Of a stretch of DNA of 64,000 nt, positions 8,423-37,086 are shown one piece after another. How positions within the stretch are numbered: the stretch's first letter is position 1; each line of letters begins with the position of its first letter. A program made the translations under genes and the position numbers. Below the pieces are notes generated by a model. It worked only from the letters and a program-made list of their open reading frames with translations. It was not told the origin of the DNA and ran no database searches. Origin of the DNA: Bacteroidia bacterium (GTDB taxonomy: Bacteria > Bacteroidota > Ignavibacteria > SZUA-365). Location: the NCBI GenBank assembly GCA_027493955.1, contig JAOSJT010000001.1:635131-699130 (forward strand). The letters are read 5' to 3'.

Positions 8423-11400
8423 ATGTCACGTTTCGAACCCTTTCCTGAAAAATTCTCATACTCCGACATTGAACTCGAAATACTCCGCTTTTGGGAAGAA
8501 CGGAGTATTTTTGATAAAAGCATCAGTGAACGACGAGACGGTACAGCCTTCACGTTTTATGAGGGACCGCCCTCCGTCAACGGTCGTCCCGGCATTCATC
8601 ATGTGATGTCGCGGACGCTCAAAGATCTCGTCTGCCGCTACAAGACAATGACCGGTCATCGGGTCCACCGCAAAGCAGGCTGGGACACGCACGGTTTGCC
8701 CATTGAAGTGGCCCTGGAAAAGGAATTGAAATTCGAGCAGAAATCGGACATCGAGAAATACGGTGTTGCGGAGTTCAATCGCAAGGCGAAGGATTTCGTG
8801 TATCACCACATCGAGTATGCCGAAGGCTGGGGCAAGCTCACGGAGCGCATGGGCTACTGGGTGAATCTGGACGATCCCTACATCACTTGTACCAACAACT
8901 ATATCGAGTCGTTGTGGTGGGCGCTCAAGCAGTTCTACGAAAAAGGACTGATTTACAAGGGCTTCAAAATTGTTCCGCAGTGCCCGCATTGCGAAACTCC
9001 GCTCTCCTCGCATGAACTCGCGCTGGGCTACGCCGACGTGAAGGATATGAACGCCTATGTCACCTTCCGCCTGCGCAATGAAGACGCCGCCATCCTCGTC
9101 TGGACCACCACGCCCTGGACCCTGATTTCCAACGTCGCACTTGCCGTCAATCCGTATGTCGAATATGTAAAAATCCGTACCGCGGAGCATGGAGTGCTGT
9201 ATCTCGCGAAGGAGCGCCTCTCCGTCATCACCGAGGAGTACGACATCCTCGCCGAGATGCTCGGGACAGATATGCTGGGCATGGAGTACGAGCCGCTGTT
9301 CCACTATGTGGAGGTGGACAAAAAGGCCTGGTACGTGGTGTCGGGTGACTTCGTCACGACAGAGGATGGTTCCGGTGTGGTGCACATCGCACCAGCGTTC
9401 GGTATGGACGATTACGAGATGATGAAAAAGTACGACCTGCCGTTTGTATTGCCGGTAACACCCGGTGGGCGTTTTACGGATGAGGTCACGGATTTCGCCG
9501 GACGACTGGTCAAAACGCTCAACTTCTCCACGCACACGGAAGAAGGCGCAGATCCGGACATCATGCGCAAGCTCAAAGAGAATGGCCGTGTCTACCGTTC
9601 CTCGAAAGACTACCTTCACAGCTATCCGCATTGTTGGCGCTGCGACAATCCGTTGATCTATTATGCCCGCGACAGTTGGTACATTCGCACAACGGATTAT
9701 GCGAAGCGGATGATCGAATTGAATAAGGAGATCAATTGGTGCCCGCCGGAAGTGGGCAGCGGACGCTTCGGCAACTGGCTCGAGGACAATAAGGACTGGG
9801 CGTTGTCACGCGATCGCTATTGGGGCACCCCGCTGCCGATCTGGGTGGCGGAGGATGGTTCCGACATGTTCATTGTCGGATCTGTGGAAGAACTCATGCA
9901 GGGCTTCCGTATCGTCGATGGGCAGCGTGTCGCTCCCTCCCGGGAGGATGTTGATTTGCATAAGCCCTGGGTGGATGAAATCTATTTCGAGAAAAACGGC
10001 CTGTTCTATCGCAGGACACCGGAGCTGATCGACGTTTGGTTCGATTCCGGCGCCATGCCCTTTGCGCAGTACCACTACCCGTTCGAGAATAAGGAGTTTT
10101 TCGAGGAGAATTTCCCCTCGGATTTCATCTGCGAAGGCATTGACCAGACTCGTGGCTGGTTCTATACGCTGCACGCCATCGCCGCGGCCCTGTTCGACAA
10201 ACCGGCGTACAAGAATCTCATTGTCAACGAACTGGTGCTTGATAAAAACGGACAGAAAATGTCCAAGTCAAAAGGCAATGTGGTGGATCCTTTCTATGTG
10301 CTGGATCGCTACGGCGCCGACGCGACCCGTTGGTATCTGACGGTGAACAGTCCGCCCTGGCGGCCGACGATGTTCAATGAGCAGGACATCGAAGGGGTGC
10401 AGAAAAATTTCTTCCGTGCGCTGATCAATACGTATCAGTTCTTCACCATGTACGCCAATATAGACGGGTTCGACGCAACCGCCGCACCGGTACCTCTGGA
10501 ACGACGCCCGGAAATTGACCAATGGATTTCGACGGAACTGCAGGTCCTCGTTCGTGATGTCCGTGCGGACATGGATGCCTATGATCCGACTCCGGCAGCG
10601 CGCGCGATCGCGGATTTCACGGTTGACCAATTATCGAATTGGTATGTACGCAGAAACAGGCGGCGTTTCTGGAAAGGCGCCATGTCCGAGGATAAGCTCG
10701 CCGCTTTCCAGACACTGCATGAGTGTCTCCTCACTCTGGCGAAGCTGATGGCGCCCTTTGCACCTTTCCTTGCCGAAACGCTGTACCAGAAGCTTACCGC
10801 CAGTATGGCCCCATCGGAACGTGTGGAATCCGTCCACCTGTGCCTGCTTCCCGAGCCGGGGTATATCGACGCGGCGTTGAAGGCCAAGATGCGAAACGCG
10901 CAACGTGTCGTATACCTCACCCGGGGACTGCGTGAGCAAACACGCCTCAAGACCCGACAGCCTTTGGCGAAAATTCTCGTCGCCAGCCCAGAACACGGTC
11001 TTGCAGACCATGTACGGGCGATGCATGACGTCATTACCGAGGAAACAAACATTCGCGATATCGAGATCATCGCGAATGACTCGGAGTTGCTGAAAAAGCG
11101 CGCCAAAGCGAATTTCAAAGTCATCGGTCCGAAATTCGGCAAGCAGGTGAAGGCTATCGCCGCACGTATCGCTGCGTTCACCACCGATGAAATCAATGCG
11201 ATGGAACGTGACGGACAAACGACATTTACGTTGGACGGAGATGACATTGTGTTGCAGAGCGAGGATGTCGAGATCCTGCACGAGGATATCGAAGGCTGGA
11301 CCATCGGCAGCGACGGCGGCCTCGTCGTAGCCCTGGACACTTCGCTCACGGAAGACCTCATCAACGAAGGTCACGCACGTGAGTTCATCAGCAAGATTCA

Positions 11401-11629
11401 GAGCCTCCGCAAGGACAGCGGTATGGAAGTGACGGATCGTATCGTCATCACATGGAACAGCGACAACGCGGAACTCGAACGGGCAATTTTGGAAACCGCG
11501 TCGTATATTTGTTCTGAAACGCTCGCTGTAAAAATCCTTAAGGCCACCATACCTGCGGGCAGCGGGATCAGGATGAGCGTCAACGATCTTTCCTGCGATG
11601 TGTATATTACCGCAGCCGAGATCGAGTAG
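8423..11629 (+). CDS. ileS: Isoleucyl-tRNA synthetase, type 2-like, with GIHH signature
   Basis: 1068 residues. It charges tRNA-Ile with isoleucine. The Rossmann core contains PGIHHVMSRTLKD where the class I HxGH signature belongs, reading GIHH, and a canonical KMSKS at GQKMSKSKGN. The insert contains the CP1 editing domain (WTTTPWTL, and the DYLHSYPHCWRCDNPL zinc-like region). RDSWYIRTTDY and IDQTRGWFYTL are IleRS/ValRS hallmarks. The sequence resembles the long eukaryote/archaea-like IleRS2 clade, which is generally tolerant to mupirocin. A swapped HxGH to GxHH signature has been linked to strong mupirocin resistance in some IleRS2 enzymes; resistance here is inference. Confidence 0.95.
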   Translation: MSRFEPFPEKFSYSDIELEILRFWEERSIFDKSISERRDGTAFTFYEGPPSVNGRPGIHHVMSRTLKDLVCRYKTMTGHRVHRKAGWDTHGLPIEVALEKELKFEQKSDIEKYGVAEFNRKAKDFVYHHIEYAEGWGKLTERMGYWVNLDDPYITCTNNYIESLWWALKQFYEKGLIYKGFKIVPQCPHCETPLSSHELALGYADVKDMNAYVTFRLRNEDAAILVWTTTPWTLISNVALAVNPYVEYVKIRTAEHGVLYLAKERLSVITEEYDILAEMLGTDMLGMEYEPLFHYVEVDKKAWYVVSGDFVTTEDGSGVVHIAPAFGMDDYEMMKKYDLPFVLPVTPGGRFTDEVTDFAGRLVKTLNFSTHTEEGADPDIMRKLKENGRVYRSSKDYLHSYPHCWRCDNPLIYYARDSWYIRTTDYAKRMIELNKEINWCPPEVGSGRFGNWLEDNKDWALSRDRYWGTPLPIWVAEDGSDMFIVGSVEELMQGFRIVDGQRVAPSREDVDLHKPWVDEIYFEKNGLFYRRTPELIDVWFDSGAMPFAQYHYPFENKEFFEENFPSDFICEGIDQTRGWFYTLHAIAAALFDKPAYKNLIVNELVLDKNGQKMSKSKGNVVDPFYVLDRYGADATRWYLTVNSPPWRPTMFNEQDIEGVQKNFFRALINTYQFFTMYANIDGFDATAAPVPLERRPEIDQWISTELQVLVRDVRADMDAYDPTPAARAIADFTVDQLSNWYVRRNRRRFWKGAMSEDKLAAFQTLHECLLTLAKLMAPFAPFLAETLYQKLTASMAPSERVESVHLCLLPEPGYIDAALKAKMRNAQRVVYLTRGLREQTRLKTRQPLAKILVASPEHGLADHVRAMHDVITEETNIRDIEIIANDSELLKKRAKANFKVIGPKFGKQVKAIAARIAAFTTDEINAMERDGQTTFTLDGDDIVLQSEDVEILHEDIEGWTIGSDGGLVVALDTSLTEDLINEGHAREFISKIQSLRKDSGMEVTDRIVITWNSDNAELERAILETASYICSETLAVKILKATIPAGSGIRMSVNDLSCDVYITAAEIE

Positions 11630-11675: not shown

Positions 11676-12914
11676 ATGGCAGCGAAAACGACCAGTAAAG
11701 CAAGCCCCGCGGAGAAGGCTGAGCCGAAGCCCGCGAGAAAGAAGCCCGCCGCAGAGGCGAAGGCTGCGAGTGACAAGGCCGCAAAACCTGCCCCGTCGAA
11801 GAAGGGCAAGACCGACGCCGCCACACCCGCACCCAAGCCGGCAGCGACAACGTCCGCAAAGAAAGCGACGGCTGTTCCTCCCAAGGGGAAATCCTCTCCG
11901 GCGAAAGTTGTCGCTACGCCTGCGGCAGGCAAGAGCAAGGAAGCGAAACCCGTACCCGCGAAGAGTACACCCGCCAAGGCGGTCAGTCCGAAAGGCAAGG
12001 ACACTCCCGTGAAAGACGTCAAAGGAACGTCGAAGGCAAAAGCCCCCAAACAGGCTCCGAAGGCTGAGAAGACAGCGCCTGGAAAAAGCAAAACCACCGC
12101 GAAAGCAGCCGCGTCCAAACCCGTCAAGGACAGCACCTCGAAGGCCAAAGCCGCAAAGACAACGGAAGTGAAGGCGGCTCCCGTCAAATCGAAGAAAGCC
12201 GTGACCGCTGCTGCCCCGAAAGCGACAAAGGAAAGCGCTGCGCCGTCGAAAACCGCGAAAGAGAGGAAAGCCGCGCAGACCGCTGCGCCGGAGAAGAAAT
12301 CCGCCGTCCCCAAACCGGCGCTCCCCGCCGCAGCCCCGGTGCGGAAATCCGCCAGGCGCCGTATCAAGGCCGATGCCGCCGAAGGCGAAGCCGGAGAGGG
12401 TGAGCCCAAAAAGAAGCGCAAGTACACCCGTCGGGCCAAGAAAGCGCCGGCACCCGTCCCTAAATATCAGGGCAAGCAGGTGTCTCTGCTGAAGAAAAAA
12501 GGGGTGGGGGACGCTGCCGCGGTAAAGAACAAACAGCAGCGCCTGTATTCACCGCAGGACCTCGAGTATTTCCGTGTTCTCATTCTCGACAAGATCAAGG
12601 ATGCCAACGAGGAATTGCTCAGCATCGAGGATCGGCTCATGGATTCCGCCACGGGTGAGTACAACGAAGACAGCACCTACTCGCTGCACATGGCGGATCA
12701 GGGTACCGACGCAATGGAGCGAGAGAAGGCCTATCTCTTTGCGGCCCGGGAAAGGAAATTCATTTCGCATTTGACGGATGCGCTGCAGCGTATCAAGAGC
12801 GGAAATTACGGATTGTGCATCGTGTGCGGCGACCTCATCGAAAAAGGCCGACTCGAAGCGGTACCGCATGCCCGCATGTGCGTATCCTGCAAACAGGAAA
12901 CGAAAGTCCGATGA
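11676..12914 (+). CDS. DksA/TraR zinc-finger protein with long histone H1-like N-terminal tail
   Basis: 412 residues from ATG 11676, with GGAG 8 nt upstream. Residues 1 to about 270 are almost only Lys, Ala, Pro, Ser and Thr, with repeated KAA/AKP/PAK-type units like histone H1 tails, followed by KKKRKYTRRAKK. The last 120 residues form a DksA/TraR domain: an amphipathic coiled coil (YSPQDLEYFRVLILDKIK..., MADQGTDAMEREKA) and a four-Cys zinc finger, CIVCGDLI with later CVSCKQE. DksA-like proteins act at the RNA polymerase secondary channel with ppGpp; the basic tail suggests added nucleic-acid binding (inference). It lies between ileS and lspA. Confidence 0.9.
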   Translation: MAAKTTSKASPAEKAEPKPARKKPAAEAKAASDKAAKPAPSKKGKTDAATPAPKPAATTSAKKATAVPPKGKSSPAKVVATPAAGKSKEAKPVPAKSTPAKAVSPKGKDTPVKDVKGTSKAKAPKQAPKAEKTAPGKSKTTAKAAASKPVKDSTSKAKAAKTTEVKAAPVKSKKAVTAAAPKATKESAAPSKTAKERKAAQTAAPEKKSAVPKPALPAAAPVRKSARRRIKADAAEGEAGEGEPKKKRKYTRRAKKAPAPVPKYQGKQVSLLKKKGVGDAAAVKNKQQRLYSPQDLEYFRVLILDKIKDANEELLSIEDRLMDSATGEYNEDSTYSLHMADQGTDAMEREKAYLFAARERKFISHLTDALQRIKSGNYGLCIVCGDLIEKGRLEAVPHARMCVSCKQETKVR

Positions 12915-12930
12915 AAGCAGACGGTATTCT

Positions 12931-13533
12931 GTGCTGAAAAACCTGCGTATTCTGTATGTCACTGCTGGCCTCCTGATTCTCGATCAGGTCACCAAGCTGC
13001 TCGTCAAAGGTGTGAATATCCCATCGTTGGGCATTTCGCACTATGGGATGACTTATGGTGAGTCCATACAGCTCATTGGAGATTGGCTGAAGATTACCTA
13101 CATCGAAAATCCGAATATGGCATTCGGCATCGAGGTGGGGGGGAAACTGTTTCTTACCATTTTCGCCATGCTCGCGTCCGTAGCCATCGTGTACCTGCTT
13201 TGGAAGTATCGCAGCGAACGCACCGCGTTCCGCCTGTCGCTCGCGCTCGTCTTGTCGGGCGCACTGGGAAATCTGATCGATCGCACACTCTATCCCGTGC
13301 TGTACGGCACCGGTAGCTTTTTTGAAGGGAATGTCGTGGACTTCATCAATTTTGATCTTTTCATGATCAATCTCGGTTCATCGTCCTTCAAGTTCTGGCC
13401 CATTTTCAATGTGGCGGATGCCGCCGTATCGATCGGTGTTGTGCTGTTGCTCATCGTGGGCTTTCCGCATAAAGCAGCGGACGCGGACGCAGCCGTACAC
13501 GCGCAGCGGAATACCACGCCTGATTCACAGTGA
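12931..13533 (+). CDS. lspA: Lipoprotein signal peptidase LspA
   Basis: 200 residues starting at GTG 12931, 16 nt after the DksA-like gene; no ATG fits. Four membrane helices are visible. Conserved motifs are LDQVTK, NPNMAFG (the NxGxAFG motif), GALGNLIDR carrying one catalytic Asp, VVDFINF, and FNVADAAVSIG carrying the second. LspA cleaves the signal peptide of diacylglyceryl-modified prolipoproteins in the inner membrane. Several predicted lipoproteins in this window would be its substrates. Confidence 0.95.
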   Translation: MLKNLRILYVTAGLLILDQVTKLLVKGVNIPSLGISHYGMTYGESIQLIGDWLKITYIENPNMAFGIEVGGKLFLTIFAMLASVAIVYLLWKYRSERTAFRLSLALVLSGALGNLIDRTLYPVLYGTGSFFEGNVVDFINFDLFMINLGSSSFKFWPIFNVADAAVSIGVVLLLIVGFPHKAADADAAVHAQRNTTPDSQ

Positions 13534-13558
13534 TCCTTCAATCTTTGTCCTCCTGTCC

Positions 13559-14602
13559 ATGAACGACGATATCTCGCCGGATCTCGACGACCTTCCTGTT
13601 TCCGAAGATGACGATGCCGCAGCGGTAACGGTGTACGAACTCCGCTCAGCGGCAGGGGCCAGGCGCGTGCGCCTGGATCAGTTTATCGTGCGGAGTGTGG
13701 AGAACGCATCGCGGACACGCGTGAAATCGCTTGTGGAGGCGGGTGGTGTGGAGATCAACGGACGCGTGGTGCTCAAACCTGGGCGTCTCGTCATTCCCGG
13801 CGATCTGGTGCGTTGCACGATTCCCAAACCACCTCCACCCGACATCGTCGCGGAGGATATCCCGCTGGACATTGTGTTCGAGGATGAGTCCATCATCATC
13901 GTCAACAAGCCCGCCGGCATGGTGACGCATCCGGCGTTCGCCAATTACACCGGTACGCTGGTGAATGCCTTGTTGTATCACACGAGAGAATTATCCCTCG
14001 AACGCGGTGAAGAGCGCGCAGGTATCCTGCATCGTTTGGACAAGGATACTTCCGGACTCCTGGCGGTGGCGAAAACCGATTTTGCCCATCAGTATATCGC
14101 AAAACAATTTGCCGCGCACGACATCGAAAGAGAATATCAGGCAATCGTGTGGGGTAGTATGCCGGAAAAGCGAGGACGCATAAGCGCACCTCTCGCGCGT
14201 CACCCCAGTGATCGAAAAAAAATGGCGGTGGTGGAGGGGGGAAAGGAAGCGATCACCGGGTATGAGGTGTTACGGGATTTCGGCTTCATGTCGCATATTC
14301 GATTGAAACTGGAAACCGGGCGCACGCATCAGATTCGTGTCCACCTCGCTTCCTTGCGTCATCCGGTATTCGGCGACCCCACCTACGGTGGCCGCAGGAT
14401 TCTCTACGGCAATATCACCGCTCGCTACAAGCAGCTGATCAGCGAGTTGCTCGAGCTGTTGCCGCGGCAGGCGCTGCACGCACGCACCCTCGGTTTCAGG
14501 CATCCCGTTTCGAGGGAAATTGTCCGCTTTGAGTGTCCGTTGCCCGATGATATCGCGAAGGCCCTGACGATGCTCGAGGAATTCTCGGCGGAGTACACGT
14601 GA
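13559..14602 (+). CDS. RluA/RluD family 23S rRNA pseudouridine synthase
   Basis: 347 residues from ATG 13559. An acidic N-terminus (about 25 residues) leads into an S4 RNA-binding domain (about 40-95, RLDQFIVRSVENASRTRVKSLVE). The catalytic domain follows, with IVNKPAGMVTHPA, LHRLDKDTSGLL carrying the catalytic Asp, REYQAIVWG and the GRTHQIRVHLA segment. The lspA-rluD order is common. RluD modifies helix 69 of 23S rRNA; the exact target of this paralogue is inferred from the S4 domain and neighbourhood. Confidence 0.9.
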   Translation: MNDDISPDLDDLPVSEDDDAAAVTVYELRSAAGARRVRLDQFIVRSVENASRTRVKSLVEAGGVEINGRVVLKPGRLVIPGDLVRCTIPKPPPPDIVAEDIPLDIVFEDESIIIVNKPAGMVTHPAFANYTGTLVNALLYHTRELSLERGEERAGILHRLDKDTSGLLAVAKTDFAHQYIAKQFAAHDIEREYQAIVWGSMPEKRGRISAPLARHPSDRKKMAVVEGGKEAITGYEVLRDFGFMSHIRLKLETGRTHQIRVHLASLRHPVFGDPTYGGRRILYGNITARYKQLISELLELLPRQALHARTLGFRHPVSREIVRFECPLPDDIAKALTMLEEFSAEYT

Positions 14603-15102: not shown

Positions 15103-16551
15103 ATGCTGTTCAATTCGCTTGATTTTGCGATTTTCCTTCCCATCGTTTTTTTTCTCTACTGGTTCGCCGCGGGGCGCAATCTCCGGGTGCAGAATGCCAT
15201 CGTCATTTGCGCAAGTTTCGTTTTTTATGGTTGGTGGGATTGGCGTTTTCTTTCACTGATCGTCTTCAGCACCGCGGTGGATTATACAGCTGGACGGGCT
15301 TTAGGGTGGACGGAAAATGCGCGTTCGAGGAGAATTCTCCTTCTTACCAGCGTGATAATAAATCTGGGTTTACTTTCGGTATTCAAGTACTATAATTTTT
15401 TTATCGAGAGTTTTGCAAGCGCATTCAGTGTGTTCGGTCTCGCTTTCTCGGCTTCGTCCCTCAACGTGATTCTCCCCGTGGGCATCAGCTTCTACACGTT
15501 TCAGACCATGAGTTACACCATTGATGTGTACAGGAGAAACATCGAGCCGACGAAGGACTGGATAGCGCTCACCGCGTACGTCAGCTTTTTTCCGCAGCTG
15601 GTAGCGGGACCGATCGAGCGCGCACGCAGTCTGCTTCCGCAGTTTCTCCGCGAGCGGCGGTTCGACGGTGCTTCGGCATCCGAAGGTCTGAGGCAAATAC
15701 TCTGGGGATTGATCAAGAAAATGGTCATCGCCGATAATTGTGCCGCGTATGCAGATATGATCTTCGGTAGTCCGGAGACATATTCCGGAAGCACGCTGCT
15801 TTTGGGCTCGCTGTTTTTCGCGTTCCAGATTTACGGTGACTTCTCAGGGTACACGGACATCGCCACCGGTACTGCGAAGCTCTTCGGGATCACGCTGTCA
15901 AAGAATTTCGCGTATCCGTATTTTTCCCGCAGTATCCCGGAGTTCTGGCGACGATGGCACATATCCCTTTCCACGTGGTTTCGGGATTATGTCTATATCC
16001 CTCTTGGAGGCGGAAGAGACGGCGCTTGGAATAGGATCAGAAATATGCTCGTTGTCTTTGTGCTCAGTGGCTTATGGCATGGCGCGAATTGGACATACGT
16101 ACTCTGGGGTATTTTCAATGCGCTGTTGTTCATACCCTCACGCTTGCGTCAGCCGGAGAAGCACCAGCTTTCTATCGTAGCGGCCGGACGTGTATTGCCG
16201 TCATTTCCAGATGCGGTCAAACTTCTGGGCACCTTCTTTCTTACGTTGATCGCCTGGGTGATCTTCCGATCGGAGACAGTCAGCTCTGCGATGATCTATT
16301 TTCATGGTATGTTCTCCTCGTCCTTATTCACTGTACCCCATTTCGTGGGCATGGGCAAGGCAGCGGTTGTTCTCTCGTTGACCTTGGGATTTCTCGTCGT
16401 CGAGTGGTTCGGTCGGGAGAATGATTTCGCAATACAACATGCATTCATACACAGATCGCGCGCACTCCGATGGGGTCTCTACATCTTGCTTGTTACCGTC
16501 GTATTTCTTTTTTCAGGCCAGGAACAGGAATTTATCTATTTTCAATTCTGA
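15103..16551 (+). CDS. MBOAT O-acyltransferase (AlgI/DltB family)
   Basis: 482 residues, the usual AlgI length, with about ten hydrophobic segments. Family motifs include the N-terminal MLFNSLDFAIFLPIVF, ASFVFYGWW, FKYYNFF, PVGISFYTFQTMSYTIDVYR, FFPQLVAGPIERA, QIYGDFSGYTDIA, RRWHISLSTWFRDYVYIPLGG, and the active-site His in LSGLWHGANWTYVLWG. Such proteins move acyl groups across the inner membrane onto extracytoplasmic polymers. The next gene starts 1 nt after its stop and encodes an SGNH-like partner, a common pairing. Confidence 0.93.
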   Translation: MLFNSLDFAIFLPIVFFLYWFAAGRNLRVQNAIVICASFVFYGWWDWRFLSLIVFSTAVDYTAGRALGWTENARSRRILLLTSVIINLGLLSVFKYYNFFIESFASAFSVFGLAFSASSLNVILPVGISFYTFQTMSYTIDVYRRNIEPTKDWIALTAYVSFFPQLVAGPIERARSLLPQFLRERRFDGASASEGLRQILWGLIKKMVIADNCAAYADMIFGSPETYSGSTLLLGSLFFAFQIYGDFSGYTDIATGTAKLFGITLSKNFAYPYFSRSIPEFWRRWHISLSTWFRDYVYIPLGGGRDGAWNRIRNMLVVFVLSGLWHGANWTYVLWGIFNALLFIPSRLRQPEKHQLSIVAAGRVLPSFPDAVKLLGTFFLTLIAWVIFRSETVSSAMIYFHGMFSSSLFTVPHFVGMGKAAVVLSLTLGFLVVEWFGRENDFAIQHAFIHRSRALRWGLYILLVTVVFLFSGQEQEFIYFQF

Positions 16552-16552
16552 A

Positions 16553-17545
16553 ATGAGAACTTTTTTATTCCGCTGCGCGCTGTTTGCCCTCAGCTTGTTT
16601 CTCTTCGACAAGCTGTTTCTGTTCGTCATGGAATATTCCCCTCGGACGGAAATAGACAAACGTCTGGAATTGATACTGGAGGGAGAAATGAACCACGACA
16701 TCGTCATTCTCGGTTCATCCCGGGCCGCGCGAAGCATCATTGCGGGACACATCGATACGGCGACCGGTCACAGTACCTTCAATCTCGCATATCCCGGGTC
16801 GGATATCGAATTTCAGGAATTCGTCCTCAGAACGCTGCTCCGGTTCAACGCTGCGCCGTCTCTGCTCGTGCTCGCAGTCGACGATGCCGACCAGCTCAGG
16901 AAAAATGAAGTGGTAAAGTTCAGATATGACCGTCTGTACCCACTTGTCAAATACGATTACATACTCCGGGAGCTGATTGATCGAGGAGAAAAAAATGAGT
17001 GGATCGCGAAGGTTTTTATTCTCCACCGACTGTACTACGGCAATCTCGATCTCAGACAGAAACAATTCTCGCGTCTGGACACCATGTTGTCCTGCGGGTC
17101 CATGCCCGTCTCCTTCCGGGATGAACGTAAAGAACTACGATATGTCTACGCTTCCAACGAGTACGATACGCGTGAGGAATCGCCGTCGAAGGTGGCGGCC
17201 TTTACCCGGATTCTCGATCTTTGCGCGAGGAGATCCATCGATGTGCTGATTTGCTTCCCGCCGAGCTTTGTATCACACAATGGGGCCTTCGAGAGTCGGA
17301 TACGAGGACTCGCCGCACCCCGTGCGCGGTATTGCACCTACGATACGACGAAATTTCATGTGTATCGGGATCCGCGAAATTTTTACGATGCCGGACATCC
17401 GACACGACGCGCAGCGGAAGAATTCAGCTCGGAGATTGCGGACAGTATCAAGGCGCTATGGAACGATGCCGGAAGGACCGGGGGCGATTACGCAACCCGT
17501 CCGGCGCCGCGTCGAATGTCTACCGACGTAACACCAATCAGGTGA
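16553..17545 (+). CDS. SGNH-hydrolase-like membrane-anchored partner of MBOAT
   Basis: 330 residues from ATG 16553, one base after the MBOAT stop. It has an N-terminal signal anchor (FLFRCALFALSLFLFDKLFLF), then an extracytoplasmic domain. DIVILGSSRAARSI is the block I-like Ser motif, NLAYPGSDI an Asn/Gly block, and DAGHPTRRAAEEFS a C-terminal Asp-His pair typical of SGNH esterases/acyltransferases. In AlgI-AlgX/AlgJ and similar pairs the SGNH protein transfers the acyl group to polysaccharide. The target glycan is unknown. Confidence 0.75.
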   Translation: MRTFLFRCALFALSLFLFDKLFLFVMEYSPRTEIDKRLELILEGEMNHDIVILGSSRAARSIIAGHIDTATGHSTFNLAYPGSDIEFQEFVLRTLLRFNAAPSLLVLAVDDADQLRKNEVVKFRYDRLYPLVKYDYILRELIDRGEKNEWIAKVFILHRLYYGNLDLRQKQFSRLDTMLSCGSMPVSFRDERKELRYVYASNEYDTREESPSKVAAFTRILDLCARRSIDVLICFPPSFVSHNGAFESRIRGLAAPRARYCTYDTTKFHVYRDPRNFYDAGHPTRRAAEEFSSEIADSIKALWNDAGRTGGDYATRPAPRRMSTDVTPIR

Positions 17546-31359: not shown

Positions 31360-32922
31360 TCACTTAGCCACAACCATGCGGCGGGAGAAGCGCTTGCCTT
31401 CGGCTTCGAGTGTGTACACATACACCCCGGATTGCAGTCTGGAAGCGTCGAAGATCACCGAATGCGATCCTGCCTCCAGTTCGCGGTTGATGACGGTCGC
31501 AACCTCGCTTCCGAGCAGATCGAACACACGCAGCTTGACACCGGCGCGGCGGGTCGTTGAAAACTCAATCGTCGTTGAGGGATTGAAGGGATTCGGGTAA
31601 TTCTGCCCCAGGGCCACCGTGGTCGGCGCTGCCGGTTGTGGTTTCACAGAAACGATGTCTGTGGCGGCAATGGAGATGTAATGGCCCGGAGACGGATTGC
31701 TGGTCGTGGTGTACAGACCGTCCGTTGCGGTAACGTACCAGAGGCATTGGAACGACTGTGTGGTGGCCTGACCGGAAATGGTCTTCATGACACCCCAGAT
31801 TTGACCATGCGTCATGGAGAGCTGCGGCTCGGTTCCATTATTGTTGGAGAGAATGCGCACCGCCCGCGTCAGACTGACGCTGTCCACGATATGCCAGGTG
31901 TATTCCACCGCGTCGGACACCACCGCCGGGTTGAAGCGGGAGATCTGAATGTCCCAATAGGGATCAGGCGGATTGGGACGTTCCCAGGTGAACGTTTCGA
32001 CGTTGGCATGTTTGGTCAGATTCAGGATGGTATGATCCACCGGCGTTTGCAGCGTGAAAGGGAAGGGGGCGTGCGACCGGACCTCGTACGGGTCCGTGAT
32101 TCCGTGGATGGACGCATCCGCCGAAGCGTAGGCCATGATGTGCTGCGGCTCAATGGGCTTCTCGCGCTCGACACGGGATGCGATCAGATAATTGGTGAGC
32201 CCGCGAATAAAGACCTCACCGGAGAAAATATCAGCGAGTCCCGGTGTGTCGGCGCTGAATTCTCCCGGCCAGCGTGCGGAGAATTTTGTGATAATTTCCT
32301 TGTTGGAAACATTGAGATAGCGGTCGCGCGGCGCAACGATGATTTCATAGGGACGCATGTTGTAGACAGCGTCTTCGGGTTGAACGGAGGAAGTGATGTC
32401 CACGAGATAATTCGTAATCTCGTCCGCGACGAACTCCACCGACTGCGAAATCTGATTGAGGAAAGGCACAGACGGGGTAATTTCCAGGAAAATATCGGCT
32501 TCGGCCTTGGTGTGAATCATGCAGATACGAACGACGCCATCAACGAACTCCGTATGCGAGATGGACCAGGTCGTATCGTCAATGACGGTCAGTTCGACGC
32601 CACCGGATGTGATGATGGCCCACGTGTACCCATCGGGATCGCTGTTCCAGGAGCGCGTGCTCGTATCGCTGTTAGCCGTGGAGTTCCGCATAGTAATGGT
32701 GGTCGGCGAGCCGATTTCATGCCAGCTGCGAATGACGTTGCCGTTTTCGTCACGCGCGGTCAGGGTAAAACAGACCTCTTCGCCGACGAGACGGGTAATA
32801 TCGGATGTGAGCGAGGATTCGAAACGCACACCGCCGCGATCCGGTCCACCGCCCGCGGCATGCAGGATGGTGATGGAAAGCAAGGTAGCGAGTGTCAGAG
32901 AAAGCAGGTTGCGATTGATCAT
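31360..32922 (-). CDS. Secreted protein with T9SS sorting domain
   Basis: 520 residues from MINRNLLSLTLATLLSITILHAAG (signal peptide), with GGAGGAG 7 nt upstream deciding the start. The body is beta-rich with Ig-like stretches (VCFTLTARDENGNVIRSW, YTWHIVDSVSLTRAVRI) and no recognised catalytic motif. The last 85 residues (LGQNYPNPFNPSTTIEF, LRVFDLLGSEV, GSHSVIFDASRLQSGVYVY) are a type A T9SS sorting domain. It is probably exported and attached to the cell surface. A long antisense open frame covers it but is not a gene. Confidence 0.87.
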   Translation of the reverse strand: MINRNLLSLTLATLLSITILHAAGGGPDRGGVRFESSLTSDITRLVGEEVCFTLTARDENGNVIRSWHEIGSPTTITMRNSTANSDTSTRSWNSDPDGYTWAIITSGGVELTVIDDTTWSISHTEFVDGVVRICMIHTKAEADIFLEITPSVPFLNQISQSVEFVADEITNYLVDITSSVQPEDAVYNMRPYEIIVAPRDRYLNVSNKEIITKFSARWPGEFSADTPGLADIFSGEVFIRGLTNYLIASRVEREKPIEPQHIMAYASADASIHGITDPYEVRSHAPFPFTLQTPVDHTILNLTKHANVETFTWERPNPPDPYWDIQISRFNPAVVSDAVEYTWHIVDSVSLTRAVRILSNNNGTEPQLSMTHGQIWGVMKTISGQATTQSFQCLWYVTATDGLYTTTSNPSPGHYISIAATDIVSVKPQPAAPTTVALGQNYPNPFNPSTTIEFSTTRRAGVKLRVFDLLGSEVATVINRELEAGSHSVIFDASRLQSGVYVYTLEAEGKRFSRRMVVAK

Positions 32923-33306
32923 AACATTACTCCTCCGCGCGGATATGGTGAAAAAACATTGATTTCCGGGAATGACAGAACAGGTGCGTATGGTACTGTG
33001 AAGCACAGCGGGCTTATACGCCGGAAAGTGCACACTTGTTCCATGCCTGCGGAGTGTGAGGGAGGCGAACCGATGGAAATACATACTCTCGCAGGCGTGT
33101 ACGGAATATACTGTAACGCAAAAGAAAACGCAACGGGATTTTCACCGCAACGGGATGCGCGACGCGGATGCGGCGTTGACAAAACAGAGAGTCAGGCCCT
33201 CGCCTGGCATGCAGCGAGCATCACAGCTGGTTCGCTGCCTCATGGCTCTTGCCATAACAGAGAAACAATAGTACTTTTCCGAATCGCCCAAATCTATGGA
33301 GGAGAA
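32923..33306. other. Divergent promoter region between two T9SS cargo genes
   Basis: 384 bp without a credible gene. Both flanking genes start with strong GGAGG-type ribosome sites at its edges. I found no clear -33/-7 promoter pair, hairpin or repeat. Confidence 0.5.
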
Positions 33307-36300
33307 ATGCGCTGTTTCCTTATACTGATATTCACGTTTGCCCTGTTGTTCGCCTCGCAATTCAGGGCCTCCGCGCAACAGAGTGGCTTCGATTTTGTGC
33401 GTGTCGGAAATGGGTTTATCACGGTTGCGGTGGAACGCAGTTCAGGACAGTTCCGCATCGAAGCGGCGGACGGCACACCGTTGCTGTTCCAATCGAAAAA
33501 CGGGGTGACCGCCTATACCAACGTCCGCTTCGGATCTGTGACCTACACGACGAATGTCTGGAATCGCAGCACACCGCCTGCCGGCACAGTCCCGCTGCCG
33601 CTCGTTTCCGTGTCAGCTCTGTCGGACAGGGTACGGCTGCTGAGTACGCTCCGCAAGGGTCCCGATTCGCTCGGCGTGCAGATAGACTTCATTCCGTCAC
33701 TGGACGGTGATTTCGCCTACGTGGATGTTGTAACGCAATTCCAGAATCACGGGCGGCGGAACGCGGAAATCGGAGTACTGCATCTTTTCGACATCACGTT
33801 ATCGCGCGACGACAACGCGCAATGCTTCGCGGATCACAGAGTGGTGCATCGCGAAACGGCCTGGAGCGGGGCGGCGGTACCGAGGCTTGTCGAAGCCGCA
33901 TCCCCCGCGCTTCCGTATCGTGTGCGCTTACGGACGGAGAGCGCCGCTGGGGCGGTGCCGCCGGATGTGCTGGTGCTCGGAAACTGGCAGTATTCCGGAT
34001 ATCTCGGAGCGGTGGCATGGGAATACACCGCCTCGGGTATCATGCTTACTGATGCAGCGGTGCTTCTGCGCTGGGATGAACGGCCGCTCGGGGTCGGGCA
34101 GCAGCGGCGCATCGCCACGGAGTATGGCTTTCTCGTGCGAACGGATCTCGAACTTTCCTGCTCCGTGCCCGTGCTGGGTATTACCCCTGATTCCAGCGGA
34201 TACATCCCTCAGCCGCTGCCCGTGACCGCAGTGGTACGCAATACAGGCAGTGTGCCCTTGCAGAACGTACAGCTTTCAATCACCTCCACCGCGCCGCTGA
34301 CTCTCTCGGCGGGCGAAAACGTCGTAAAGACCATCGCGGGACCTATCCCGCCTGGTGGCGATGCGAGCACTCGCTGGCTGTTTGATGTTGCCGGGGTCGA
34401 CACACTAAGCATCGTGCCTCTGGATATTTCCGTCATCGCCCCCGACACGCTGCAGCGTCATTGCGCTCTCGATGCGCGCATTCCACCGATACGTCCGACA
34501 GAGATTTCCATTTCCTGCGGCGACACAGTGCGTCTCGGACTCGACCCGGGCGGCCTCGGCTATGCGCCTGATCCGTTTCCGCTGCGCGTGACCATCAGCA
34601 ATTCCGGCCGGCGCACCGTATCAGGTCTGCGCGCGACCATCCAACTTCCCCAGGAAATTGTCCTCATCTCGCCGTCGACGGATCAGCCTGTCGAACCCGA
34701 TCCGCTGCGTGCGGGAGAGAACACCTCGCTGCTCTGGGCTCTGCGAGGAATCGTCCAGTCAATGGATGTGTATGCACCCTGCGTTGTGCGTGTCCTGGCG
34801 GGAGGGGAGGTGCTCGCCGAATGCACCGTCATCGTTCAAATACCGGGAATCAACGCCGAACCGTGCATCGAGACACGGAGCAGCACGGCTGGGACGGATT
34901 TTTTCCTGGCTTTTCTTCCCGATAACGTTGCCACGGGTGCGCAGTCGCTGCGTGTGTACGTCACTGCGCCACAAGGAGCAGATGTTCTCCTTCGATATCT
35001 CGGCGGGACGCACTGGGTCGGCGGCAGTATACCAGTCGGAGGCATGGATGCGTTTGAACTCGACGTTGATCTTACGAACATCCCCGCCGAAACGAAGGTG
35101 CGAACAGGGGTGCGATTAACCAGCGATCGACCTGTCCATGTGTACATCGGCAATTACCGCGAACGACACAGCGATGGAACAGCGGTGCTTCCCGCACATG
35201 CGCTGGGCAAGGAGTACCTCACCGTCGGTTACAATTGGGAAAGCGCCTGGGAGCAGTTCCTCGTCCTGGCGACGGAGGACGCGACCACAGTCACCATCAT
35301 CCCGAAATCCATCACCTCCACAGATCGGCCGGACGGCCAGCCCTTCACCGTGATTCTTGATCAGGGTGAGGTGTATTGCGTCAAATCGCGCTATCCCGGC
35401 GACGGAGGCTCCCTCTCCGGGTCGCGGGTGACGGCGGATAAGCCGGTCGCCGTATTCAGCGGAGGAGAGTCGGGATGGATTCCTTCAGTGTCGACGCCGG
35501 CCACCGGTTTTCTCAATCCGCATGTGGAGCAGATGATTCCGGTGGAGTATCTCGGGACGCAGTACGCCGCTGTACCGTTTCGTTCGCGCCTGCGTGGTGA
35601 CACGTACAAAATCGTCGCGACGCAGCCGAACACGCAGGTTGACGCGCCATCGGGGACGGTGACCCTGCAGAACGTCGGAGATTGGCATGAGGAGAATATC
35701 GAACACGCGCGCCTTCTCTCCGCGGACAAGCCGGTGATGGTTGCGCAGTTCGCGAATTCCGCGCGCTGGGACGCCGACACGGCGGAATACGGCGATGGTT
35801 CCATGCTGCTGCTGACGCCACTCGATCGGCATATTTCCTGTCACTATTTTCCCGCGGGCATGCTCACCGAGGATCCCGTGTTGGCGCCGAATACGTCCTT
35901 GTCGGTAGGTGCCGGCGGCAGGACGGAGATACCGATGAATGCCACGACCGATAGACGCAGCTTCACCTTCGAGGCTTGGGTGCAGTCGCTGTCGTCGGGC
36001 AGCATCATCAGCCAGTGGGAAGCGGTATCCCCAGCCAGGGGTTGGATGTTGCACTTTGATCAGACTCGAAGCAGGGTGATACTCACAGTCGCTGACGCGG
36101 GACAAAGCAGGGATTTCTCTTCCACGGATAACATCATCTTCCAGCGGCAATGGGCGCATATCGCGGTGGTGGCGGACGCCGACGCCGGAACCGTGGAGGT
36201 TTTCGTGAACGGGAGTGTGCGCATTCAGGCTACGGTCGCTCTGCCCTCACCGCCGCTACAGCCGCTGACATTCGGCGGGGCCGCATCCGGGGTGGACTGG

Positions 36301-37086
36301 TCCGGGTACATGGATGAATGCCGTCTCTGGCGCGGTGTACGCACCCCGACGCAGATTCTCTCAAAACGCAATCAGCGTATCGGCGTGTTTGAATCCGATG
36401 GACTCATCGGCTATTGGGATTTCTGTGATGGCTGGAGCGATGCGAGCGGTTTGGGCAATACGCTCGTGCCCATCTCTCCCGCAACATTGATAAACGCCTG
36501 GGATCTGCCAGCGTCACTGCTTTGCGAGGAAATGACGGATTCGAATTTCGTCAACATCATCGCGCCGACGGATGCGACGAACGAGGTGCGGCTCAATCAT
36601 CGCGCACTGAGTGCGGGCGATTGGCTGGATCTTCCCGGAGCCCCTGGATGGAAGACAGCGTCCGTGCTGCTGCCCACCGGACTGAACCGTCTCGAAACCA
36701 GCGATCTGCGGGGAATCGGCGCGTCCAGCTACGGTTTCGCGTATCACGACGCCTACACCGCGTGGACGGGATTCGGTGCATGGAAAACCGTCGCTTCTTT
36801 TGTGTCGTCCGCAGTTCCGGGAGAACCGCATCTCCATGCACCATGGCCCAACCCGGCGACGGGAACGATGGTGTATACTGCGGTCACGATTCCGGTGCGG
36901 CAACGTGTGGTGCTTCGAATATATGACGCCGCCGGACGGCTTGTGCGGACTGTCGTTGATGTGGAATGTACCGCCGGTACCACGGCTATGCGCATCCCTG
37001 TCGGAGGACTTGCCGCGGGGACATATACCCTGGCTATGCAGTCCGGACAAAGCACTCTGTATCGCACATTTGTGCGTCATCCGTAA
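33307..37086 (+). CDS. Large T9SS surface protein with IgGFc-binding-like and LamG domains
   Basis: 1259 residues from ATG 33307, with GGAGGAGAA directly upstream and a signal peptide (LILIFTFALLFASQFRASAQ). The open frame extends about 1.7 kb further upstream, but only antisense to another gene. Repeated Ig-like/CARDB-type segments (LPVTAVVRNTGSVPLQNVQLSI) occupy about 290-510. An IgGFc-binding N-terminal-like domain lies at about 530-830 (TDFFLAFLPDN, PVHVYIGNYRE). A concanavalin/LamG fold lies at about 880-1040 (FTFEAWVQSL, GYMDECRLWRGVRT, GYWDF). A T9SS sorting domain (APWPNPATGT, LRIYDAAGRLV, LAAGTYTLAM) is at the end. Probably an adhesive surface protein; ligand unknown. Confidence 0.88.
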   Translation: MRCFLILIFTFALLFASQFRASAQQSGFDFVRVGNGFITVAVERSSGQFRIEAADGTPLLFQSKNGVTAYTNVRFGSVTYTTNVWNRSTPPAGTVPLPLVSVSALSDRVRLLSTLRKGPDSLGVQIDFIPSLDGDFAYVDVVTQFQNHGRRNAEIGVLHLFDITLSRDDNAQCFADHRVVHRETAWSGAAVPRLVEAASPALPYRVRLRTESAAGAVPPDVLVLGNWQYSGYLGAVAWEYTASGIMLTDAAVLLRWDERPLGVGQQRRIATEYGFLVRTDLELSCSVPVLGITPDSSGYIPQPLPVTAVVRNTGSVPLQNVQLSITSTAPLTLSAGENVVKTIAGPIPPGGDASTRWLFDVAGVDTLSIVPLDISVIAPDTLQRHCALDARIPPIRPTEISISCGDTVRLGLDPGGLGYAPDPFPLRVTISNSGRRTVSGLRATIQLPQEIVLISPSTDQPVEPDPLRAGENTSLLWALRGIVQSMDVYAPCVVRVLAGGEVLAECTVIVQIPGINAEPCIETRSSTAGTDFFLAFLPDNVATGAQSLRVYVTAPQGADVLLRYLGGTHWVGGSIPVGGMDAFELDVDLTNIPAETKVRTGVRLTSDRPVHVYIGNYRERHSDGTAVLPAHALGKEYLTVGYNWESAWEQFLVLATEDATTVTIIPKSITSTDRPDGQPFTVILDQGEVYCVKSRYPGDGGSLSGSRVTADKPVAVFSGGESGWIPSVSTPATGFLNPHVEQMIPVEYLGTQYAAVPFRSRLRGDTYKIVATQPNTQVDAPSGTVTLQNVGDWHEENIEHARLLSADKPVMVAQFANSARWDADTAEYGDGSMLLLTPLDRHISCHYFPAGMLTEDPVLAPNTSLSVGAGGRTEIPMNATTDRRSFTFEAWVQSLSSGSIISQWEAVSPARGWMLHFDQTRSRVILTVADAGQSRDFSSTDNIIFQRQWAHIAVVADADAGTVEVFVNGSVRIQATVALPSPPLQPLTFGGAASGVDWSGYMDECRLWRGVRTPTQILSKRNQRIGVFESDGLIGYWDFCDGWSDASGLGNTLVPISPATLINAWDLPASLLCEEMTDSNFVNIIAPTDATNEVRLNHRALSAGDWLDLPGAPGWKTASVLLPTGLNRLETSDLRGIGASSYGFAYHDAYTAWTGFGAWKTVASFVSSAVPGEPHLHAPWPNPATGTMVYTAVTIPVRQRVVLRIYDAAGRLVRTVVDVECTAGTTAMRIPVGGLAAGTYTLAMQSGQSTLYRTFVRHP

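Follow-up and report, generated by a model that had tools for sequence, protein, structure and literature searches.

A DksA-type protein with a histone H1-like tail at the ileS-lspA locus of Ignavibacteria

RESULTS

A tailed DksA-type gene lies between ileS and lspA

The window (the whole 64,000-nt stretch of DNA that was analyzed) contains a forward-strand ORF at positions 11676 to 12914, with an ATG at 11676 and a stop codon at 12912 to 12914, which encodes a protein of 412 amino acids. A long basic tail occupies its N-terminal part and a DksA-type domain its C-terminal part. The features of the locus are as follows.

8423 to 11629, + strand: ileS, isoleucyl-tRNA synthetase, ending 46 nt before the start codon of the tailed gene
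11676 to 12533, + strand: H1-like tail rich in Lys, Ala, Pro, Ser, and Thr, including the basic linker, residues 1 to 286, net charge +56 (from composition)
12402 to 12506, + strand: basic linker motif ...KRKYTRR.KK.P..VPKYQGKQ...KKKG, residues 243 to 277, conserved only in the window's family
12534 to 12911, + strand: DksA/YteA-type domain, residues 287 to 412 (from family models and fold prediction)
12552 to 12638, + strand: predicted first coiled-coil helix, residues 293 to 321
12639 to 12704, + strand: tip loop, residues 322 to 343, with H338 (D71 of E. coli DksA) and D341 (D74), modeled with low confidence
12705 to 12800, + strand: second coiled-coil helix, residues 344 to 375, with R358 (R91) and H365 (K98)
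12801 to 12899, + strand: C4 zinc finger (PF01258), residues 376 to 408, with Cys 381, 384, 402, and 405
12931 to 13533, + strand: lspA, signal peptidase II, with a GTG start chosen by eye
13409 to 14602 (ORF as listed), + strand: rluD-type pseudouridine synthase with an S4 domain, the true start probably lying further downstream

An earlier note on this DNA had described a tail of about 270 residues joined to a DksA-type domain. The observation is confirmed, and the tail is real and slightly longer than stated, comprising 286 residues with the linker. A frameshift or misassembly fusing two genes, named in that note as a possible undoing of the observation, is excluded by relatives with intact frames and by even codon usage, and the readable relatives from the same family have the tail. 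The choice of Lys, Ala, Pro, Ser, and Thr codons and the third-position GC content of the tail match those of neighboring genes, and the remaining two forward frames across it contain 5 and 6 stops.

A profile search of the organism's own genome found the window's protein as the sole PF01258 match. A short, partial zinc-finger match (L265, C1:70102-70233, E 1.4e-4) lies in a 132-amino acid frame there and is missed by PF01258. The same genome has one RelA/SpoT gene as well as HU-type genes, one HU-type match having a 347-amino acid frame. No RNA families or tRNAs were found within the 64-kb window. Elsewhere in the window, positions 31636 to 37086 hold an 1816-amino acid ORF in which IgGFc_binding and Laminin_G_3 domains are recognized and a secretion sorting domain at the C terminus scores just under its cut-off, and positions 15103 to 17545 hold an MBOAT acyltransferase gene and an overlapping 374-amino acid ORF, possibly a polysaccharide O-acetylation pair.

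The tail resembles histone H1 in composition

Lys (67 residues, 23.4%), Ala (72, 25.2%), Pro (34, 11.9%), Thr (22, 7.7%), and Ser (21, 7.3%) together account for 75.5% of the 286-residue tail, which has a pI of 10.6 and is devoid of Cys, His, Phe, and Trp; the 126-residue C-terminal domain is acidic (pI 5.4). Among 8450 overlapping 286-residue stretches taken from the window's other mechanically selected ORFs, the best one reaches 41.3% for these five amino acids, and Lys at most 7.3%. The tail gave no domain match in Pfam at E values up to 10, so its likeness to H1 rests on composition. Taken in this way, the H1-like tail of the earlier note holds good, the composition rather than the sequence being kept in relatives. 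The repeats that the note ascribed to the tail are not borne out: tandem DNA repeats were rejected as its source, TRF giving a single weak match (11 bp x 1.9), and KPAA occurs just 2 times.

The C-terminal domain is predicted to adopt the DksA fold

PF01258 (zf-dskA_traR) scores 44 bits over residues 376 to 408 (cut-off, 24.9), which places the protein in the DksA/TraR superfamily. YteA (TIGR02890) is the best NCBIfam model, with 85 bits, yet it stays below its cut-off of 134.4, as does the second, the DksA equivalog TIGR02420 (52.8 bits; cut-off, 115.5). In an AlphaFold2 model of residues 245 to 412, built from 32 sequences (mean pLDDT, 73.9), the helices and zinc-finger blocks mostly exceed 90, the tip loop is at about 50, and the linker is poor. 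The model matches Pseudomonas aeruginosa DksA2 (4ijj; Z 13.4, TM 0.78) and E. coli DksA (1tjl; Z 13.2, TM 0.71), with TM given by target length, and unrelated chains give Z values below 8. The predicted coiled-coil and zinc-finger fold is that of DksA.

RNA polymerase contact residues are kept and ppGpp site residues are mostly replaced

Functional residues were compared across 117 aligned rows, the window among them; 75 belong to the class Ignavibacteria and 42 lie outside it. E. coli numbering follows a phmmer alignment to 1tjl from residue 88 onward, and for residues 71 to 76 an ungapped extension from which the equivalences are inferred. The residue equivalent to R91 is Arg in 117/117 rows. 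R129 and K139 are residues that we take to be part of the ppGpp site; the K139 equivalent is Lys in 116/117 rows, and Val occupies the R129 position in all 117. Lys is found at the K98 position in 19/117 rows (the window has His), and Gly replaces A76 throughout (117/117). The earlier note had linked action on RNA polymerase (RNAP) to the acidic tip residues of DksA. One of these stays, with an acidic residue at the D74 equivalent in 117/117 rows, and the other does not, D71 being replaced by His in 75/75 class members, the window included. In E. coli DksA, R91A is reported to weaken the binding of RNAP and K98A to block that of ppGpp, while D71N/D74N disturbs regulation (PMC10746185). Since the K98 and R129 equivalents are mostly not kept, dependence on ppGpp at site 2 is doubtful, and the residue pattern suggests that ppGpp at this site is not central.

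The window protein has all four zinc cysteines along with the D74 and R91 equivalents. Outside the class, zinc cysteines are mostly lost (the rows L201-L220, L239-L240, and L245-L264; the C117 equivalent is present in 2/42), and the RNAP-contact residues stay. One group within the class (L032, L033, L034, L086, L223, and relatives) carries nine extra residues, a CPTC-like pair among them, within the zinc finger, an insert that apparently shifts the zinc ligands.

The DksA/TraR zinc finger of the earlier note is thus borne out by the PF01258 score above cut-off, the DksA fold, and the RNAP-contact residues. Its description of the domain as ordinary does not quite hold, given YteA as the best model, below its cut-off, the His at D71, and the replaced K98 and R129.

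The tail architecture is conserved across the class

Of 61 genomes searched for the domain (the organism's own and 60 relatives), 59 gave a match at E values up to 0.001. By score, 57 of these 59 matches were taken as orthologues; G011 and G015 gave weak matches only, and G012 and G025 none. Together with 18 genomes from a sample of the phylum, this first set makes up the 75 class members. A tail was defined as at least 28 residues with a net charge of at least +8 and at least 15% Lys plus Arg; G030 was scored as tailed by hand on account of a lysine-rich frame upstream of the ATG chosen by the script. By this rule 68/75 class members have a tail, 6/75 have none, and 1/75 (G009) is truncated at the end of its contig, the linker motif being seen in its 299-residue frame. 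G020 and G153 are clearly tailless. In the other four (G145, G157, G179, and G187), 454 to 811 nt lie between ileS and the chosen start, and tails may be undercounted. Among the best 80 of 523 named loci, 79 have a tail and one (L093) runs into the end of a contig; these 80 are the closest loci, several sharing contigs with the first set, and are not independent of it.

Tail length ranges from 33 (G037) to 364 residues (G036), G030 and pieces at contig ends being left aside, as the earlier note had anticipated in calling the length variable. Across relatives, the composition of the tail is kept, while its sequence and length are free to change. The only part found conserved as sequence in the window's family is the 35-residue linker (residues 243 to 277), which shows 55 to 79% identity in 8/9 other genomes of the same family that were searched. 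Its match in G001 is weak (E 0.25), and neither G004 nor any of the 6 genomes that the same search included from other families has it. A different short motif, like PKxIFSPATGTA / ARTGVS, precedes the domain in the family of L048, L049, L054, L057, and L058.

Across the class, the order ileS, DksA-type gene, lspA is maintained. We found ileS upstream on the same strand, within the stretch retrieved, in 69/75 class members, contig ends accounting for 4 of the 6 without it; downstream, lspA is present in 73/75, with G039 and G153 as the exceptions. In some class members ileS is not the direct neighbor, the gap measuring from several hundred to 2800 nt. The actinobacterium Nonomuraea gerenzanensis has, on a record of chromosome size that was deposited as a plasmid, a tailless counterpart of ~130 residues (29% identical; best model also YteA), with a divergent ileS on one side and lspA-rluD on the other. 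The tail therefore does not define the locus; the neighborhood is common to different phyla and the tail is not. The SCO2073-2076 region of Streptomyces coelicolor presumably has the same order of ileS, DksA-type, lspA, and rluD genes.

Many Bacteroidota outside the class lack the tail

The domain is present in 148/148 genomes of the phylum sample, class members included. Of the 42 genomes outside the class, 10 have a tail and 32 are tailless, in a set that leans toward tails because its first 11 genomes were chosen for their long frames, the others being taken as representatives of families, and that omits family f35 and genomes whose matches went unlisted. The tailless relatives that the earlier note had treated as a potential refutation thus exist in many Bacteroidota outside the class and in a few class members, and the window's own family has the tail. 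With many orthologues outside the class being tailless, the tail is dispensable for the core function.

Mapped on a quick tree of the 117 rows, the presence or absence of the tail implies a minimum of 9 changes, and starred branches force 7 of these. This tree uses only 128 columns, has many open forks, and does not distinguish gain from loss, and part of the 9 changes falls within the group of uncertain starts (G145, G157, G179, and G187). As far as these sequences indicate, the tail was gained or lost several times in Bacteroidota.

DISCUSSION

The closest characterized protein is DdbA (SCO2075) of S. coelicolor, which is described as an H1-like N-terminal region followed by a DksA-like domain (work of Aldridge et al. 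2013, as cited in PMC9043899, PMC11942623, PMC7985256). DdbA is reported to be nucleoid-associated and proposed to couple DNA conformation and transcription, and deletion of ddbA is said to affect both the compaction of the chromosome and the stress resistance of spores (PMC9043899, PMC11942623). The idea of the earlier note that nucleoid packing is joined to transcription control is therefore already published for Streptomyces.

We somewhat favor the interpretation that the window protein is a bifunctional regulator of the DdbA kind, in which the DksA domain acts on RNAP and the polycationic tail on DNA, coupling transcription control with compaction. Given the fold and the conserved contact residues, the C-terminal domain would enter the RNAP secondary channel in the manner of DksA. 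The N-terminal polycation, probably disordered, may by its composition bind DNA without sequence preference. The tail could then keep the protein and bound RNAP on the nucleoid, through which transcription control would be coupled to DNA compaction. With the equivalents of K98 and R129 replaced, the protein probably relies less on site-2 ppGpp for its effect than E. coli DksA does; these replacements would speak against the classical ppGpp/DksA mechanism.

A polycation that does not discriminate between sequences may also suit RNA, and in most class members the gene has ileS on one side and, at some distance on the other, a pseudouridine synthase gene. The tail might thus bind nascent transcripts, rRNA, or ribosomes and place the DksA domain at rRNA operons or translating complexes. 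We consider this rather improbable, as Pfam finds no RNA-binding domain in the protein, gene neighborhood is weak functional evidence, and DdbA, the nearest characterized protein, is reported to be nucleoid-associated. The span of tail lengths, the unconserved tail sequence, and the common tailless orthologues outside the class would also agree with a nearly neutral low-complexity extension that grows and shrinks freely while the DksA domain does all the work. The strong positive charge retained in 68/75 class members and the identity of the basic linker within the family argue against neutrality, and we give this explanation a similarly low chance. It is very improbable that the protein is mainly a nucleoid protein with the DksA domain as a structural cap devoid of RNAP action, as the loss of zinc cysteines in many relatives might hint, given that the window protein has all four cysteines and the D74 and R91 equivalents and that RNAP-contact residues stay even where zinc ligands are lost.

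Beyond the bifunctional regulator itself, we tentatively propose, with the odds somewhat against it, that H1-like tails were repeatedly gained and lost across Bacteroidota, in parallel to Streptomyces DdbA, with the DksA-type gene at the ileS-lspA locus as the hot spot of this turnover. An RNAP secondary-channel factor would then have been fused recurrently, and under selection, to a nucleoid tether, and the fusion would work without the classical ppGpp site 2. If the window protein acts like DdbA, a physical link between chromosome packing and the control of RNAP would extend far beyond one genus. Among Bacteroidota, one orthologous domain, mostly at one locus, naturally comes with anything from no tail to a tail of 364 residues, and the role of the tail is therefore directly testable. 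If the tail is neutral, the series would be a clear example of how low-complexity sequence turns over on a regulator.

Several known systems share parts of this architecture. E. coli DksA is like the window protein in its fold, acidic tip residue, RNAP-contact Arg, and C4 zinc finger; unlike it, DksA has no such tail, whereas the window protein lacks D71, A76, K98, and R129 and scores below the DksA equivalog cut-off. CarD of Myxococcus xanthus combines an RNAP-binding domain with an HMGA/H1-like DNA-binding domain and thus also joins an RNAP-interacting domain to a basic, eukaryote-like DNA-binding tail, although its RNAP-binding domain is unrelated. The H1-like tails of Pseudomonas AlgP and PhaF are reported or thought to bind DNA (PMC9239181). 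As described there, they are similarly long, disordered, and rich in Lys, Ala, and Pro, but they have KPAA repeats and are attached C-terminally to another domain, whereas the window protein has 2 KPAA. DksA copies on Streptomyces plasmids were rejected as stand-ins for DdbA; the two examined have 129 codons (stop included), leaving no room for a tail, and their surroundings differ.

No description of a tailed DksA-type protein in Bacteroidota was found in the open-licence PMC literature. DdbA, as described, shares with the window protein the order of an H1-like basic region and then a DksA-like domain; it belongs to another phylum, and the window protein has a family-specific linker and replaced ppGpp-site residues. 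The window protein is a DdbA-like member of a known architecture, and what is new, as far as the open-licence literature reaches, is the breadth and turnover of the tail in Bacteroidota and the conserved basic linker.
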